From contig NZ_JACJPO010000066.1 of assembly GCF_014696105.1 (NCBI RefSeq), forward strand, positions 310,001-374,000: a DNA stretch of 64,000 nt, given 5' to 3'. Both the position numbers and the translations under genes were made by a program. Below are positions 19,151-60,726 of this stretch, in pieces; the stretch's first letter is position 1; every line of letters starts with the position of its first letter. The DNA comes from Microcoleus sp. FACHB-1515 (GTDB taxonomy: Bacteria > Cyanobacteriota > Cyanobacteriia > Elainellales > Elainellaceae). The notes beneath the pieces are model-generated. The model did no database searches. It was not told the DNA's origin and saw nothing but the letters and a program-made list of their open reading frames with translations.

Positions 19151-19267
19151 GAATTTGCGAATTGTTACGTGAAATTTGCGCGATCGAGGGTATAGTGCCT
19201 TGAAGTGAATGGCTTGCGTGAACGAAGAATAAGCCATTTCTGAGTGAGGAGTGAAAAGTTAGGCAGA

Positions 19268-20251
19268 ATGGCAGAAATTATCGGCAACGAAAACGACAAC
19301 GTCCTGCAAGGAACCTTTGAACCTGATCGAATTTTTGGCGTTGGTGGCAGGGATGTGATTCGCGCTGACGCCAGCGATGACATTGCCGATGGCGGGGCGG
19401 GCGATGATGTTGTCTTTGGCGATGACGGCAATGACACGCTTACGGGTGATAGCGGCAATGACACGCTCACGGGCGATAACGGCAATGACTTATTAGATGG
19501 CGGTGACGACAATGACACGTTGTTCGGTGGAAACGGCAACGACACGCTGTTTGGCGGCAATGGCAGTGATTCGCTGGATGGGCAAGCGGGAATCGACAGC
19601 TTGTATGGCGGGGCAGGGGATGACGTTTACACCCTCACCAACCGCGCTGACAGCATCATTGAAGCACCTGACAACGGCATCGACACCGTGCGATCGCCTT
19701 TTAGCATTCAGCTTTCGCGCGATCTGGAGAATCTGACGCTGATTGCTGATCGGCGGCTGAACGCTCGCGGCAACAGCGTCGATAATATTTTGCGCGGCAA
19801 CAGTTTCCGCAACCGCTTGTTGGGCTTGGGCGGAAGCGATCGCCTGGTGGGATTTAGCGGCAATGATGTTCTGTTGGGCGGCAACGGTGAGGATGAACTG
19901 TTGGGCGGCAGAGGCCGCGACACGCTGATCGGTGAGGCTGGGCGCGATCGCTTTAGCTTTGAGTTTCGCGACGAAGGTCCCGATCGCATTCAAGATTTTA
20001 GCGTCGGCCAAGATACAATCGGCGTGTCGCAGCAAGGGTTTGGGCGCAATCTCGGTCGTGGAACGCTCAGCGCTCGTCGCTTTCATGTTGGCGCAAGTGC
20101 CTCCGATCGCAGCGATCGCTTCATCTATGACCCCAATCGCGGTGCGCTGTTTTTTGACTCAGACGGATCGGGCAGAACGCGCCAAACTCAAATCGCCAGC
20201 CTCGATCGCAACCTCAACCTGACGCGCCGAGACATCTTTGTATTTGCCTAA
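19268..20251 (+). CDS. RTX (hemolysin-type Ca2+-binding) repeat protein
   Basis: 327 residues from the ATG at 19268. Two blocks of GGxGxDxLx nonapeptides (about residues 45-110 and 195-230; e.g. GGNGNDTLFGGNGNDTLF) form Ca2+-binding parallel beta-rolls. The rest includes a YTLTNRADSI-type linker and the terminal DRIQDFSVGQDTIG region seen in RTX C-termini. There is no signal peptide, as expected for type I secretion through a C-terminal signal; no secretion genes are nearby. The repeat block is also a tandem repeat in DNA (about 19430-19580). A strong terminator follows. Confidence 0.9.
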   Translation: MAEIIGNENDNVLQGTFEPDRIFGVGGRDVIRADASDDIADGGAGDDVVFGDDGNDTLTGDSGNDTLTGDNGNDLLDGGDDNDTLFGGNGNDTLFGGNGSDSLDGQAGIDSLYGGAGDDVYTLTNRADSIIEAPDNGIDTVRSPFSIQLSRDLENLTLIADRRLNARGNSVDNILRGNSFRNRLLGLGGSDRLVGFSGNDVLLGGNGEDELLGGRGRDTLIGEAGRDRFSFEFRDEGPDRIQDFSVGQDTIGVSQQGFGRNLGRGTLSARRFHVGASASDRSDRFIYDPNRGALFFDSDGSGRTRQTQIASLDRNLNLTRRDIFVFA

Positions 20252-24741: not shown

Positions 24742-25230
24742 ATGACAATTGGACAAGACCAAACGCAGGCGATCGCTACTGGGATGACAGAAAATAATCA
24801 TCCTGCTTCGCGCCCCAACTCCCGCGCTTGGCAGGACTCTACCCGCCCGCCCGATGCCGCTCCGTCTAAGCAGCCACCTGACCTCGACGCGCTGCGGCAG
24901 CAAATTGACTGGGAACATTTGCACCGCCTTTCAGACGACAGCACTGAATTTGAATGGGAACTGCTGCAAGTATTCGCTGAAGATAGCTCTGCCTATCTCG
25001 CGCACCTAAAGCAGGCGATCGCTCAAGAAGATTTTTGGCAGATCGAGCGCGACGCTCACCACATCAAAGGGGCAAGTGCCAACGTTGGCGCGACCTCAAT
25101 TCAAACTGCCGCCGCTGCCCTAGAGCAGCAAGCCCGCGCCAAACGGCTTGAGGATAGCGATCGCTGGATTGCCATGCTGGAAAGTGCGCTGGATCAGCTG
25201 ATCATGCTGGTCAGACTCGCTCCAAGCTGA
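24742..25230 (+). CDS. Free-standing Hpt (histidine phosphotransfer) protein
   Basis: 162 residues: a disordered Pro/Ser/Gln-rich N-terminus (to about residue 48) and a four-helix Hpt domain. The phosphorylatable His lies in DAHHIKGASANVGA, with the Lys and Gly residues of the HxxKG consensus. Hpt proteins shuttle phosphate between receiver domains of phosphorelays. There is no kinase or receiver in the same transcript, but a degenerate kinase lies 2 kb away and the hybrid kinase at 34.6 kb has its own Hpt. An ATG at 24784 is an alternative start. Confidence 0.85.
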   Translation: MTIGQDQTQAIATGMTENNHPASRPNSRAWQDSTRPPDAAPSKQPPDLDALRQQIDWEHLHRLSDDSTEFEWELLQVFAEDSSAYLAHLKQAIAQEDFWQIERDAHHIKGASANVGATSIQTAAAALEQQARAKRLEDSDRWIAMLESALDQLIMLVRLAPS

Positions 25231-25251: not shown

Positions 25252-27150
25252 ATGACAAGTCCAGCGATCGATCGGCACACTGCTGATATGAATCAGCTTT
25301 CTCTCCTTCAATCGTTGCCCTACGGCTGGATGGGCACGATCGCTCAGTTTCTCGATACGGATGAAGCCGATTGGCTGGCGGCGATCGAAACGAACTACCA
25401 GCAGCTTTACCGACAGCGATCGACCGCAACGCAGCAGCAGGCCTGGCAAGATTGCTATCAAATTTTGCGATCGCAACTGGTCAACTTACGTGATAGAAAC
25501 TGGACGTTGATTTTTGAATACGAATTGCCCAGAGAAGGCGGCAGGCGACCGGATTTAGTATTGCTGGCGGACGATCGAATTTTCGTTTTTGAGTTTAAGC
25601 AAAAGTCAACGGCAAGCGCGGCGGATTTAGATCAGGTGGCGGCTTATGCACGAGATTTAAGTCAGTATCACAGCCAGTCGGTGGGCTGTCCCATTCAGGC
25701 GATCGTTGTGCCGACTCGTCGCCAGAAACCGAGCGAACAGCGCGGCGATATTTTGATGCTCAATCCCAATGAAATTGCGAAACTGCTGAATGATTTGAAT
25801 GGGAAAGGCGCAATCGCGGCGTCCGGCAACATCGATCCGCAAGCTTGGGTGCAGGCGGACTATGAACCCTTGCCGACGATTATTCAGGCGGCGAAATCCA
25901 TTTTTGAGCAGGAACCGCTGCCAAATATTAAACGCGCTCACAGTGCCAGAATTCCTGATTTAATCGCGTATCTCAATGAAGTCGTCGATCGCGCCCAAGC
26001 GAACCGAGAGCGGCATCTCGTTTTGGTTACGGGCGTACCGGGAGCAGGAAAAACGCTGGTCGGCCTTCAGTTTGTTTATCAAACTTCGATCGATCAAAAA
26101 GCCGTCTTTTTATCTGGCAATGCGCCGCTGATTACCGTGCTGCAATATGCCTTGAAAAGTCGCGTTTTTGTGCAGTCAATTCGCAATTTTTATATTGATC
26201 ACGAAGTCCGTAAACAAAAAGCACCCCGCGAACAAATTATCGTGTTTGATGAAGCACAGCGGGCTTGGGATGCCGATCGCATGGCCGAGAAATACGGCAT
26301 TACCAGCGCGGCTGCGGGGGCGGTTTTGCGAATTGCCGAACGAACTCCAGACTGGTGCGTTGTCCTGGGTTTAATTGGGGAAGGCCAAGAAATTCATGTG
26401 GGTGAAGAAGAAGGCACAGAGCAGTGGAATCGCGCCCTCGAAGTGGCTGCTTGCCCTTGGCAGGTTCACTGTTCGCCGCAGCAGGCGGGCTACTTTACTT
26501 CAGTTCCGGATGCCAACCTGCACACTGATGATCTGTTTAATCTCACGACTTCCCTGCGTACCCATCTCGCCCAAGATTTGCAAACTTGGGTGGCGCAGTT
26601 GCTGACAGGCGACATTGCTGCCGCTGCCGCAACCATGCCGCGACTAAGCGCGACCGGATACAACGCTTACCTAACTAGAGATTTAGAGGCGGCAAAGGCA
26701 TACTGCCGCGATCGCTACTTGTCTCAACCGGATAAGCGCTATGGTCTGCTGGCCTCTTCTCGCGCCCGCAATCTGGTTCATCACGGCATTGCCAACGACT
26801 ACATGGCAACGCAGCGCCTCAAAGCGGGGCCTTGGTACATTGATCCGCCGGATTCCCCGTTGTCCTGCCGTGCGCTCGATAGCGTGGTGACGGAGTTTGC
26901 CTGTCAGGGTTTAGAGGTGGATTTTGCGATCGTCGGCTGGGGCGATGATCTGCTGTGGTGCGAAGGTCAGTGGCGCACGAGTTCTCGTCAGAAAAATGTG
27001 CGCGACCCGCTGCGGCTGCGGCTGAACAGCTATCGCGTTTTGCTGACCAGGGGGCGAGATGGATTTGTTGTGTTTGTGCCGCCAGAAGCGAAGATGGATG
27101 CCGTGTTTGACCTGCTGCGATCGAGCGGATTGCCACTGTTGGTGGACTGA
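25252..27150 (+). CDS. DUF2075 helicase-like P-loop protein with N-terminal PD-(D/E)XK-like domain
   Basis: 632 residues. N-terminal region (about 60-160) carries a restriction-endonuclease-like pattern: Glu89, then R-P-D101 and, twelve residues on, E114-F-K116 in FVFEFKQKS. The middle is a DUF2075 (Schlafen group 3-like) ATPase: Walker A GVPGAGKT (261-268), Walker B VFDEAQRAW (332-340). The C-terminal end has DFAIVGWGDDL and the helicase-like RVLLTRGRDGFVVFVPP. It starts 21 bp after the Hpt gene, so co-transcription is possible; an ATG at 25288 is an alternative start. Such fusions are plausible DNA/RNA-processing or defence enzymes; function is inference. Confidence 0.8.
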   Translation: MTSPAIDRHTADMNQLSLLQSLPYGWMGTIAQFLDTDEADWLAAIETNYQQLYRQRSTATQQQAWQDCYQILRSQLVNLRDRNWTLIFEYELPREGGRRPDLVLLADDRIFVFEFKQKSTASAADLDQVAAYARDLSQYHSQSVGCPIQAIVVPTRRQKPSEQRGDILMLNPNEIAKLLNDLNGKGAIAASGNIDPQAWVQADYEPLPTIIQAAKSIFEQEPLPNIKRAHSARIPDLIAYLNEVVDRAQANRERHLVLVTGVPGAGKTLVGLQFVYQTSIDQKAVFLSGNAPLITVLQYALKSRVFVQSIRNFYIDHEVRKQKAPREQIIVFDEAQRAWDADRMAEKYGITSAAAGAVLRIAERTPDWCVVLGLIGEGQEIHVGEEEGTEQWNRALEVAACPWQVHCSPQQAGYFTSVPDANLHTDDLFNLTTSLRTHLAQDLQTWVAQLLTGDIAAAAATMPRLSATGYNAYLTRDLEAAKAYCRDRYLSQPDKRYGLLASSRARNLVHHGIANDYMATQRLKAGPWYIDPPDSPLSCRALDSVVTEFACQGLEVDFAIVGWGDDLLWCEGQWRTSSRQKNVRDPLRLRLNSYRVLLTRGRDGFVVFVPPEAKMDAVFDLLRSSGLPLLVD

Positions 27151-27155
27151 CTGCG

Positions 27156-28556
27156 CTATTCTTCGATTCGGCGAGTTTCCAGCGGCAAAAAGATCGTCAT
27201 CACTTCACCTTGCTGCGGACGTTCGCGGACAATCAGCTTGCCGCCCAATGCCTGAAACAAATTTTTGGTGACGCTGAGGTTCAAGCTGAGATTTCCGGTT
27301 TCCGGCTGAAACATCAGCAGTTGGCCGATCGATTTCAGCGTCGGCGTCCACTTCGATTTGCCATTTGTCGTGGCGATATCAGGCTGCGACTGGAATTGCA
27401 GCTTTAACTGGTGTCCGGCCAAGGTTGCTTCAAGCTGAATGTGGCCGCCGGGCGGCTGCGTCTGCGTGATGCGATCGATCAGGCCAGTCAACACCTGATC
27501 CAGCATGGCGGAATCGCTGACCACGAGGGGCAGCTTTTGCGGCAGCGACACATCAAGCGTCAGGCCGCGCTGCATAGCGGTTTGCTGCCAGCGGGCGATG
27601 TTTTGCTCAAACACCTGCGTCAGCGAAATTGCACCGAGCGGCGCGATCGATTGTTTGTGAGGCGTGGTTTCCAGTTCGACGGCGCGGAAGATCAAGCCAA
27701 AGCGATCGATCTGCTTGGTGCATTCTTGATCGATCAGCTTGAGGCGCTTGAGGACATCGGGGCTGAGGTCTTGCCGCTTCAGCAAAAGGCGCGTCAGCGT
27801 GCGAATGGTAGCGAGCGGCGTGCGGACTTCGTGCGCGATCGCCTGCAACAGTTCGACATCAGCCGCCGAGTCGAGCGGATCGGAATTGGTTTCAACCGCA
27901 GGTGCGGCGGATGCTGGCGTTGATTCCCACTCGATCGCGTCGGGCAGGCAGGTCAGCAGCAAATGGCTAAAGCGCGTGACGAGTCGATAGTCGGGTGCGA
28001 TCGGCTGAAACTGATCGACCAGCACATCAAGACGGCTGACGCTTTGCGGCTGGGCGAGCAGCAGGCGCGACCGCAGCGATCGCCATGCCTGCCACACCAC
28101 ATCTGGGTCAAACGAAAAGCGAAAAGCGGGCGCATTCGTCACTCCTTCCCCAAACGCCAGCGCGACGCTAAAGCTCGGTGTCAGAACGACGCAAAACTGT
28201 TCGCCTGCCTGCGGATCGTCGGCCAGCAGCGGCAGCGTTGCAGGGGTGGCGGCGACTTCTGAGCAGCGATCGGCGGGCGGCAAAAACGGCATCCAGGTCG
28301 CCAAGCTCAGCGGCTCAGGCGTGAATGTCCAGCACGAGAGGCGATCGAGCAAAGCACCCTGCTCCAAGATGGGAACGGGACCAGCCAGCAAAACGCCTGC
28401 TTGCGTTTCTTGCAGCAAAATATGCAGGGCAGCGATCGCGCTATACCAGCGGCGTTCGGCCTGCACCTGCTGCTGTAAAGCAGGCTTGACGGCGATCGAC
28501 AGCGGTTCGCTTTGCTCGATCAGTTCACTTAGCGTTGGCAAATACCACTTGTACAC
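27156..28556 (-). CDS. Atypical sensor histidine kinase with degenerate ATP-binding domain
   Basis: 466 residues, no membrane helix. Residues 1-230 form a sensory part I cannot name with confidence (possibly DICT-like). The dimerisation domain is normal, with His242 in LQAIAHEVRTPLATIRTL. In the ATPase part the N-box (residues 353-367, DQVLTGLIDRITQTQ) lacks the catalytic Asn and no D-x-G-x-G box is present before NLSLNLSVTKNLFQALGGKL. It may still bind ATP weakly, or act as a phosphatase or as a phosphoacceptor. It converges on the DUF2075 gene with 5 bp between the stops. Confidence 0.75.
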   Translation of the reverse strand: MYKWYLPTLSELIEQSEPLSIAVKPALQQQVQAERRWYSAIAALHILLQETQAGVLLAGPVPILEQGALLDRLSCWTFTPEPLSLATWMPFLPPADRCSEVAATPATLPLLADDPQAGEQFCVVLTPSFSVALAFGEGVTNAPAFRFSFDPDVVWQAWRSLRSRLLLAQPQSVSRLDVLVDQFQPIAPDYRLVTRFSHLLLTCLPDAIEWESTPASAAPAVETNSDPLDSAADVELLQAIAHEVRTPLATIRTLTRLLLKRQDLSPDVLKRLKLIDQECTKQIDRFGLIFRAVELETTPHKQSIAPLGAISLTQVFEQNIARWQQTAMQRGLTLDVSLPQKLPLVVSDSAMLDQVLTGLIDRITQTQPPGGHIQLEATLAGHQLKLQFQSQPDIATTNGKSKWTPTLKSIGQLLMFQPETGNLSLNLSVTKNLFQALGGKLIVRERPQQGEVMTIFLPLETRRIEE

Positions 28557-59754: not shown

Positions 59755-60228
59755 TCATTTAAACTTTTCCAACAGCGATTGAATCAGCATCGGGGAGGCT
59801 CGGAAAGTGGTTTCCTGAAGAAGAGCGATCGCTTGCGGAAAATCTGCAATTTCTAGATTAGCTGCTGCCTCTAAAATACCGAGTACGCCAACCACTTTGA
59901 TGTTTCTCGATCGAGCAACTTCTCTAGCCTGCCGCTCATCGACTAAAAGCAAATCTGCATTTAACTGTTCCACTAGCAAAATTGCCTGACGTTCACCCGG
60001 ATCTAATTCTTCCAGCACTGCATCAGGTTCAACCGTAACGGTTTGAATTTCTAGCCAGTCAGGAGGAGTTTCTATCCATTGCTTGATGAGGTGGGGCGAT
60101 CGATCATTTGTCAACTCATCGCGTACAGTTTGTGGAATGATGACTCGATCGTACAGCCGAGGCAGTAAATTAATTTGATTAATTAGCAGCAAATAGCAAA
60201 GCGGCGAAGTATCAGAAACAACCAGCAT
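59755..60228 (-). CDS. DUF3368 PIN-like toxin
   Basis: 157 residues. VVSDTSPLCYLLLINQINLL, IIPQTVRDEL, LDPGERQAILLVEQL and LLLVDERQAREVARSRN mark the DUF3368 (PIN-like) family. Acidic residues Asp6, Glu and Asp positions fit a metal-dependent RNase. It starts one base before the end of the UPF0175 gene (TAATG), a typical toxin-antitoxin coupling. Third gene of a three-gene operon. Confidence 0.88.
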   Translation of the reverse strand: MLVVSDTSPLCYLLLINQINLLPRLYDRVIIPQTVRDELTNDRSPHLIKQWIETPPDWLEIQTVTVEPDAVLEELDPGERQAILLVEQLNADLLLVDERQAREVARSRNIKVVGVLGILEAAANLEIADFPQAIALLQETTFRASPMLIQSLLEKFK

Positions 60229-60509
60229 TAAATCTTTAGCTTTCCTTCCTGGCTGAGTTGCTCTACTGTTTGTCGGTCTTGTTCAAGATCAGCAATATCA
60301 TAGTGCAAATACACCTCTCGCGCTTTGAAGAACGCATCGAGTTCAAGTCGAGTTGAAAATCCTAATAGTTCTCTTGCCTTTCCTCCGCCGATCAATTCAC
60401 TGCGGTAAGCTTCAATGACCCAAAGTTCCAGCAGTTTGCGCTCTAGGTTCCCCCACTTTGCTTCTAATTCGTCAGCTAACGCATTGGGAATTTCAACTGT
60501 AATCTTCAT
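60228..60509 (-). CDS. UPF0175 family antitoxin
   Basis: 93 residues from the ATG at 60509 (longer starts exist but are not needed). KITVEIPNALADELEAKWGN, IEAYRSELIGGGKARELLGF and the terminal LEQDRQTV match UPF0175. The family members are antitoxins for DUF3368. The gene is 4 bp downstream of the Phd-like gene, and its stop codon overlaps the toxin start. Confidence 0.85.
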   Translation of the reverse strand: MKITVEIPNALADELEAKWGNLERKLLELWVIEAYRSELIGGGKARELLGFSTRLELDAFFKAREVYLHYDIADLEQDRQTVEQLSQEGKLKI

Positions 60510-60513
60510 GTGT

Positions 60514-60726
60514 TTATCCTGGTAGTGGCGCATTAAAGTCATCTGGCATAGTGAAGCGGCCTTGATCTTGACCTAAGCTATTACGGCGATTAGAAGAAGG
60601 GTGAAATAGAACGAGTTTGGCGATCGGAACACCTTGATTAGAAATAATCACTTCTTCTCCCAGTTCGACTCGTTCTAGAAGTTGCAAAAGATTAACTTTT
60701 GCTTGGTGAATGCTAACTGTCTCCAT
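60514..60726 (-). CDS. Phd/YefM-type antitoxin, cognate toxin absent
   Basis: 70 residues: METVSIHQAKVNLLQLLERVE, GEEVIISNQGVPIAKLVLF and a disordered C-terminal tail typical for Phd/YefM antitoxins. Normally a RelE or PIN (VapC) gene follows directly; here the next gene is the UPF0175 antitoxin. It may have lost its toxin, or may regulate the downstream pair as a shared repressor. Confidence 0.85.
   Translation of the reverse strand: METVSIHQAKVNLLQLLERVELGEEVIISNQGVPIAKLVLFHPSSNRRNSLGQDQGRFTMPDDFNAPLPG

Follow-up and report, generated by a model that had tools for sequence, protein, structure and literature searches.

A cyanobacterial PD-(D/E)XK nuclease joined to a Schlafen-type helicase: a PDC-S41 family member with a β-clamp-binding-like N-terminal tail

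The window analysed here is a stretch of 64,000 nucleotides from Microcoleus sp. FACHB-1515. Its ORF at 25252-27150 on the forward strand was confirmed as real and encodes a protein in which an N-terminal PD-(D/E)XK nuclease is joined to a complete SF1 helicase on one chain. The gene product is most likely a clamp-tethered DNA helicase-nuclease, with a role in defence or genome maintenance. The family to which it belongs, PDC-S41, is already catalogued; the clamp-like tail and the resemblance of the nuclease domain to the linker of the Schlafen proteins appear to be new. The features on which the argument draws are the following.

25252-27150, + strand: CDS, PD-(D/E)XK nuclease plus SF1 (SLFN-g3/DUF2075) helicase, 632 aa
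25294-25308, + strand: Q15-L-S-L-L19, β-sliding-clamp-binding-like pentapeptide in the disordered N-terminal tail (motif scan, model, precedent in PMC4703070)
25315-25863, + strand: PD-(D/E)XK nuclease domain, about residues 22-204 (alignment, AlphaFold2 model, structure comparison, Pfam scan of the family)
25516-25518, + strand: E89, invariant acidic residue that closes strand 85-89 (alignment and model)
25552-25554, + strand: D101, invariant, the predicted catalytic aspartate of the PD motif (alignment)
25591-25599, + strand: E114-F-K116, invariant (D/E)XK (alignment)
25633-25647, + strand: Q128xxxY132, invariant RecB/Cas4-like QxxxY motif (alignment)
25951-27081, + strand: SF1 helicase domain, residues 234-610, PF09848 SLFN-g3_helicase (Pfam and structure comparison)
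26032-26055, + strand: motif I/Walker A, GVPGAGKT (261-268) (alignment)
26242-26262, + strand: motif II/Walker B, VFDEAQR (331-337) (alignment)
26371-26394, + strand: motif III, LIGEGQEI (374-381) (alignment)
26890-26922, + strand: motif V, TEFACQGLEVD (547-557) (alignment)
27025-27063, + strand: motif VI, NSYRVLLTRGRDG (592-604) (alignment)
24742-25230, + strand: upstream gene for an Hpt-domain protein, ending 21 nt before the CDS (Pfam; adjacency shared only with the congener G001)
27156-28556, - strand: downstream, convergent histidine kinase gene (Pfam; not a conserved partner)

The gene is under purifying selection, with a whole-gene dN/dS of 0.13 against the congener G001 (nuclease domain 0.19, helicase domain 0.10). 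An alternative start at ATG 25288 (M13) would still leave the clamp-like motif inside the shortened product. Base composition lends no support to a recent acquisition, with a GC of 0.536 against 0.539 for the window and a GC3 of 0.562, where the mean is 0.617 (sd 0.040). A promoter and terminator scan around the gene gave nothing above chance level, and the only other PF09848 match in the same genome, located elsewhere, is weak and falls below the cut-off. Searches of the protein against PHROGs and NCBIfam returned essentially generic P-loop matches only. Family assignment by sequence comparison with solved structures had to be set aside: queries with the protein alone and with family profiles gave only P-loop matches or E values of at least 0.05. 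The AlphaFold2 model of the whole protein, built from a 12-sequence alignment, has a pLDDT of 77.7.

The sequence-only reading had picked out E89, R99-P-D101, E114-F-K116, GVPGAGKT and VFDEAQ (331-336) as signs of a PD-(D/E)XK domain fused to a DUF2075 ATPase, and all of these residues are present where it placed them. In a set of 36 sequences, made up of the window protein and homologues down to about 30% identity, E89, R99, D101, E114 and K116 are identical throughout, as are Q128 and Y132, which that reading had not recorded; SF1 motifs III-VI and the Q15-L19 pentapeptide likewise go beyond it. A QxxxY motif following the (D/E)XK marks the RecB/Cas4 nucleases. In an earlier 23-sequence alignment just 13 columns before residue 200 were invariant, with the active-site residues among them. 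Whereas a single-sequence Pfam scan of the N-terminal part gave only sub-threshold NERD and HSDR_N matches, scanning the nuclease domains of 26 members one by one recovered NERD in 17, HSDR_N in 12 (best 7e-5), PDDEXK_9 in four and VRR_NUC in three; the recurrent matches are thus to models of the PD-(D/E)XK type. The structure prediction that the same reading had proposed as a check gives a nuclease-like fold. The AlphaFold2 model of this domain alone (pLDDT 83.9, pTM 0.78) runs strand-strand-strand-helix-strand (strands 85-89, 102-105 and 110-116, helix 123-139, strand 148-154), with E89, D101, E114 and K116 on or beside strands. The predicted domain accordingly shows the alpha-beta-beta-beta-alpha-beta core of the PD-(D/E)XK fold, with the aspartate and the (D/E)XK on or beside strands and the catalytic residues conserved. 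Compared by VIA-align, on which the structural claim for the domain rests, the model has mostly PD-(D/E)XK nucleases as its neighbours: Can2 (Z 8.2 over 128 residues), Cdn1 (7.4), VC1899 (7.1), EndoMS/NucS (6.8), McrC (6.6) and Hjc (5.0). Foldseek with the nuclease domain alone gave no match below 1e-3 (best 4.2e-3). From the invariant site and the predicted fold we infer a catalytically active nuclease, with DNA as its probable substrate.

Fusions of a PD-(D/E)XK nuclease with an SF1 motor are common (PMC5704561), and RecB/AddB, Dna2 and UvrD-Cas4 share with the window protein the combination of the two on one chain. They differ from it in that the nuclease here is N-terminal and minimal, the alignment holds no conserved Fe-S cysteines of the Cas4/Dna2 type, and the motor is of the Schlafen type and not of the UvrD type. 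With the CRISPR ancillary nucleases Can2, Cdn1 and Card1, with McrC and with EndoMS/NucS the likeness is confined to the nuclease fold (Z 4.6-8.2); the window protein has no CARF sensor match and no partner ATPase gene, its motor being on the same chain.

The helicase is recognized by PF09848 (SLFN-g3_helicase, formerly DUF2075) on residues 254-610 with an E value of 1.9e-61 and 208.7 bits against a cut-off of 24, and SF1 motifs I, II, III, IV, V and VI are all present. The tested residues of Walker A and B, motif III, R436, QGLExD and NxYR/RxRxG are identical in all 36 sequences, the exceptions being the threonines at 547 (motif V) and 599 (motif VI), replaced by serine in three. Among solved structures the best match of the domain is human SLFN11 (Z 18.6, 279 residues, rmsd 3.9), followed by Dda, RecD2 and Pif1. 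Foldseek with the full model likewise puts SLFN11 (2.9e-10) at the top and SLFN14 second, with the matches after them falling to 6e-6, so that the Schlafen-type P-loop domain of the sequence-only reading is borne out by structure. Several homologues depart from the common layout. In the Elainella homologue (L008/G005:C62) the Walker A helix is directly followed by some 90 extra residues of low complexity, inserted in frame (INSSINLSINSSINLP...), and a second, smaller insertion lies near residue 495. Another (L007/G016:C262 3061-4956) is frame-shifted over residues ~191-273, before and into Walker A, by sequencing error or decay; L007, the same locus as G016, was left out of the alignments for the tree and the model. 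A third (G033:C176) is split in two frames.

The proximity of the helicase to SLFN11 and SLFN14, proteins with RNase activity, raises the alternative that the enzyme acts on RNA as the vertebrate Schlafens do, with the motor loading on RNA and the nuclease working as an RNase. We consider this very improbable. The RNase of the Schlafens resides in the Slfn core domain, and the Pfam scan of the window protein has no AlbA_2 (PF04326) match, the PD-(D/E)XK domain holding that position; nucleases of the latter kind are usually DNA-specific, and the structural neighbours found here include DNA nucleases. Moreover, the helicase domain of SLFN11 itself binds ssDNA (PMC9482658).

The residues that precede the first conserved segment (YGWxG) are little conserved in either sequence or length, and the model leaves them disordered, with a pLDDT below 50 for residues 1-19. 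It is within this stretch that the pentapeptide QLSLL occurs, a relaxed form of the QL(S/D)LF-like peptide that β-clamp ligands are expected to carry in flexible stretches. The cyanobacterial clade has 17 distinct tails, of which 12 carry Q[LM]x[LMVIF][FL], a pattern fixed after the tails had been read, against 0.15 expected. In 20,000 tail shuffles the mean was 0.15 with never more than four motif-bearing tails, a comparison that ignores shared ancestry, the tails being homologous and not independent events. The variants found are QLSLL, QLDLF, QLSLF, QLGLF, QLPLF, QLSVF, QLSMF, QLNLF and QLSFF. As a precedent, E. coli Pol III and its exonuclease have been equipped with QLDLF and QLSLPL as motifs that bind the clamp more tightly (PMC4703070). 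Judging by this sequence pattern, the tail probably docks the enzyme on the β sliding clamp (DnaN), and the presence of the motif in most of the tailed clade members suggests an action at replicating DNA. The motif is nonetheless missing from the eight species of genus g168 and from the distant homologues, and it is degenerate (QLPLQ) in the congener G001, the nearest relative; hence, the docking would be a trait of only part of the clade. These gaps, together with the common descent of the tails, would also fit a by-product of ancestry or of chance devoid of clamp function. We regard that explanation as doubtful, since the motif has been kept while the surrounding residues and the tail lengths vary, which argues for function; its variation resembles that of known clamp ligands (QLSLF, QLDLF, QLNLF, QLGLF, QLSVF), and just two of the 131 ORFs of the window have such a motif within their first 30 residues.

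Nine of the 36 genomes of the order carry the gene, as do 25 of 390 in the class sample and eight of 291 in the phylum sample. As the sequence-only reading had noted, it stands alone: no partner gene recurs across genera. The signalling genes reported beside it are indeed there, but a signalling partnership with the Hpt and histidine kinase genes was rejected, and the Hpt neighbour is probably incidental, because the adjacency is common only to the one congener and the gene lies elsewhere in other genera. Also in the window, at 19244-20251 (+), the translation reads as a haemolysin-type calcium-binding protein with GGxGxDxLxGG repeats. The neighbours in other clade members encode cyclopropane synthase, peptidase S13, Tab2, DUF554, RodZ, sigma-70, TPR, HhH-GPD glycosylase, glyoxalase and GHL5 proteins; shared synteny accounts for the neighbours conserved in g168 and within the pairs L006/L009, L035/L008 and L038/L039. 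In genus g168 the gene is present in all eight species beside the same sigma-70 factor, with pairwise identities of 72-93%, and is therefore core and vertically kept.

When 91 neighbours of clade members were scanned with PADLOC, no restriction family came up, and the families matched were mostly PD-T4-6-type, TPR or other generic models; here, as in the scan of 72 neighbours of distant members below, the tally is of matched families and not of genes. The window itself has no defence neighbours save one PIN toxin-antitoxin pair more than 30 kb away. Read from its translations, this is a likely type II toxin-antitoxin cluster at 59755-60726 (-), comprising a PIN-domain protein (59755-60228), a small UPF0175-like protein (60228-60542) and a Phd-like antitoxin ORF (60514-60726). 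The PIN protein is most likely the single window protein with a PDC-S70 match, the PADLOC tally naming no member.

These surroundings lend themselves to a reading in which, at the level of the clade, the enzyme is a housekeeping DNA repair or replication-restart factor, a Dna2/RecB-like processor of ends or flaps on the clamp, and only the distant relatives are linked to defence. The clamp-like tail, the strong purifying selection, the syntenic core status in one genus and the housekeeping neighbours, which in two genomes include an adjacent gene for a base-excision glycosylase of the HhH-GPD type, all fit it. Against this, homologues with 30-36% identity sit clearly in defence contexts, and the enzyme is not generally needed, being absent from 27 of the 36 genomes of the same order. 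We see such a purely housekeeping role as a credible possibility that falls short of probable.

The family as a whole presents a different picture. The window protein matches the PADLOC model PDC-S41 over its whole length (1.1e-142, 474.6 bits, residues 27-617 against model positions 7-631 of 657). According to PMC12988326, which cites Payne et al. 2024, the PDCs are candidates of one gene each that came out of a guilt-by-embedding screen and have mostly not been tested; in the literature searched we found no published test of PDC-S41 or of its anti-phage activity. Relatives with 30-36% identity on an Exiguobacterium plasmid and a Niallia megaplasmid neighbour HsdRMS, HNH and McrBC genes, and other distant ones adjoin genes for a SIR2 protein, Uma2, NB-ARC, HipA and a BglII-type enzyme. 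The scan of 72 neighbours of distant members recovered type I and type II restriction subunits, PDC-S05 and PD-Lambda-5. The defence islands that the sequence-only reading had proposed to look for are thus found around distant members (restriction genes, McrBC, SIR2, HipA) but not around the window gene or its clade. In the tree, which has long branches, the window clade joins a Bacillota plasmid and prophage group, and the members from other bacteria, plasmids and phages form a mixed group apart.

Further members turned up in particular settings. In another class of the same phylum, the gene in L040 adjoins those for a SIR2_2 protein of 1006 aa and for two Pfam-less proteins of 241 and 469 aa. 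L041 has counterparts of each alongside its own copy, of which two are shorter pieces; with these neighbours the gene possibly forms a small multi-gene defence system. Five related viral contigs of 44-65 kb (L049-L052 and L055) encode a nuclease-helicase that is 33-34% identical. In L055 the gene is close to an amidase gene with an endolysin-like look, and the vicinity of the endolysin is a usual place for accessory genes. A third viral scan, run with the Bacillota pair, gave no match.

Because the PDC-S41 family is found in defence islands, plasmids and prophages, it most likely acts in defence against invading DNA. One could then suppose that here too the enzyme is purely an anti-phage or anti-plasmid nuclease, idle until invading DNA is sensed. 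The full-length model match, the contexts of the family and the patchy occurrence in cyanobacteria speak for this, but the window clade differs from the catalogued family in its clamp-like tail, in having no defence neighbours and in being core in one genus, where its syntenic retention suits housekeeping better than defence. For this gene we therefore hold a purely defensive role to be unlikely. The stand-alone defence or repair function put forward in the sequence-only reading remains plausible in its first part, while defence as the sole or clear role does not fit the clade.

The family contexts favour defence and the clade contexts a constitutive role, be it intrinsic defence or fork maintenance, to which we give about equal weight for this gene. 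With modest confidence we favour a mechanism in which a single protein serves as an ATP-driven DNA helicase-nuclease docked by its tail on the β sliding clamp. The Schlafen group III-type SF1 motor would translocate on DNA at the expense of ATP and feed or position it at the N-terminal metal-dependent DNase with its RecB/Cas4-like QxxxY motif. The flexible QLSLL tail would anchor the enzyme on DnaN and so site it at replicating or recently replicated DNA, where it may cut aberrant or foreign replication intermediates. In the cyanobacterial clade, a stable stand-alone chromosomal gene would provide this activity constitutively, for defence or genome maintenance.

The comparison with the Schlafens extends beyond the motor. 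Aligned by VIA-align with the human linkers, the nuclease model matches SLFN14 400-554 (Z 6.5) and SLFN11 404-561 (Z 6.2) over 131 residues each, and as a Z near 6 may reflect a common arrangement, we take this match as a lead and not as proof. In SLFN11 the linker (354-576) is followed by the helicase (577-901) (PMC9482658), an order matching that of nuclease and helicase in the bacterial protein. The linker, also called the 'M-domain' (PMC9256597), is a mixed alpha/beta domain whose function is described as unknown (PMC8789055), and in the SLFN literature searched we did not find it named as a PD-(D/E)XK fold. Nor does PF21026 (SLFN_GTPase-like) match the gene, so that the relation to the linker is without sequence support here. 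On the basis of the model and of the closest solved helicase fold being that of SLFN11/SLFN14, the bacterial protein appears to correspond to the Schlafen linker plus helicase. It differs in having an intact PD-(D/E)XK site, the linker being known only as mixed alpha/beta, and in having neither the Slfn core RNase domain nor the SWAVDL motif, a string not found in its sequence. Since the core domain is missing, the gene product is not a strict Schlafen, though its motor is still of the Schlafen type.

SLFN11 is recruited to stalled forks. We tentatively raise the possibility, which we think more doubtful than not, that the linker and helicase of the vertebrate Schlafens descend from such a bacterial nuclease-helicase, the linker being a decayed PD-(D/E)XK nuclease in front of which the Slfn core RNase was added, and that the clamp-docked cyanobacterial variant is a fork-directed counterpart of SLFN11. 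Within the cyanobacteria, the gene offers a case of a defence-type gene that has turned core and syntenic in one genus, and the PDC-S41 defence candidate is given a concrete, testable enzymology, with two predicted active sites and a likely docking partner. If the linker is indeed a relic nuclease, a domain of 'unknown function' in clinically important human proteins would be explained, and the antiviral Schlafens of vertebrates would be linked to bacterial nuclease-helicases.
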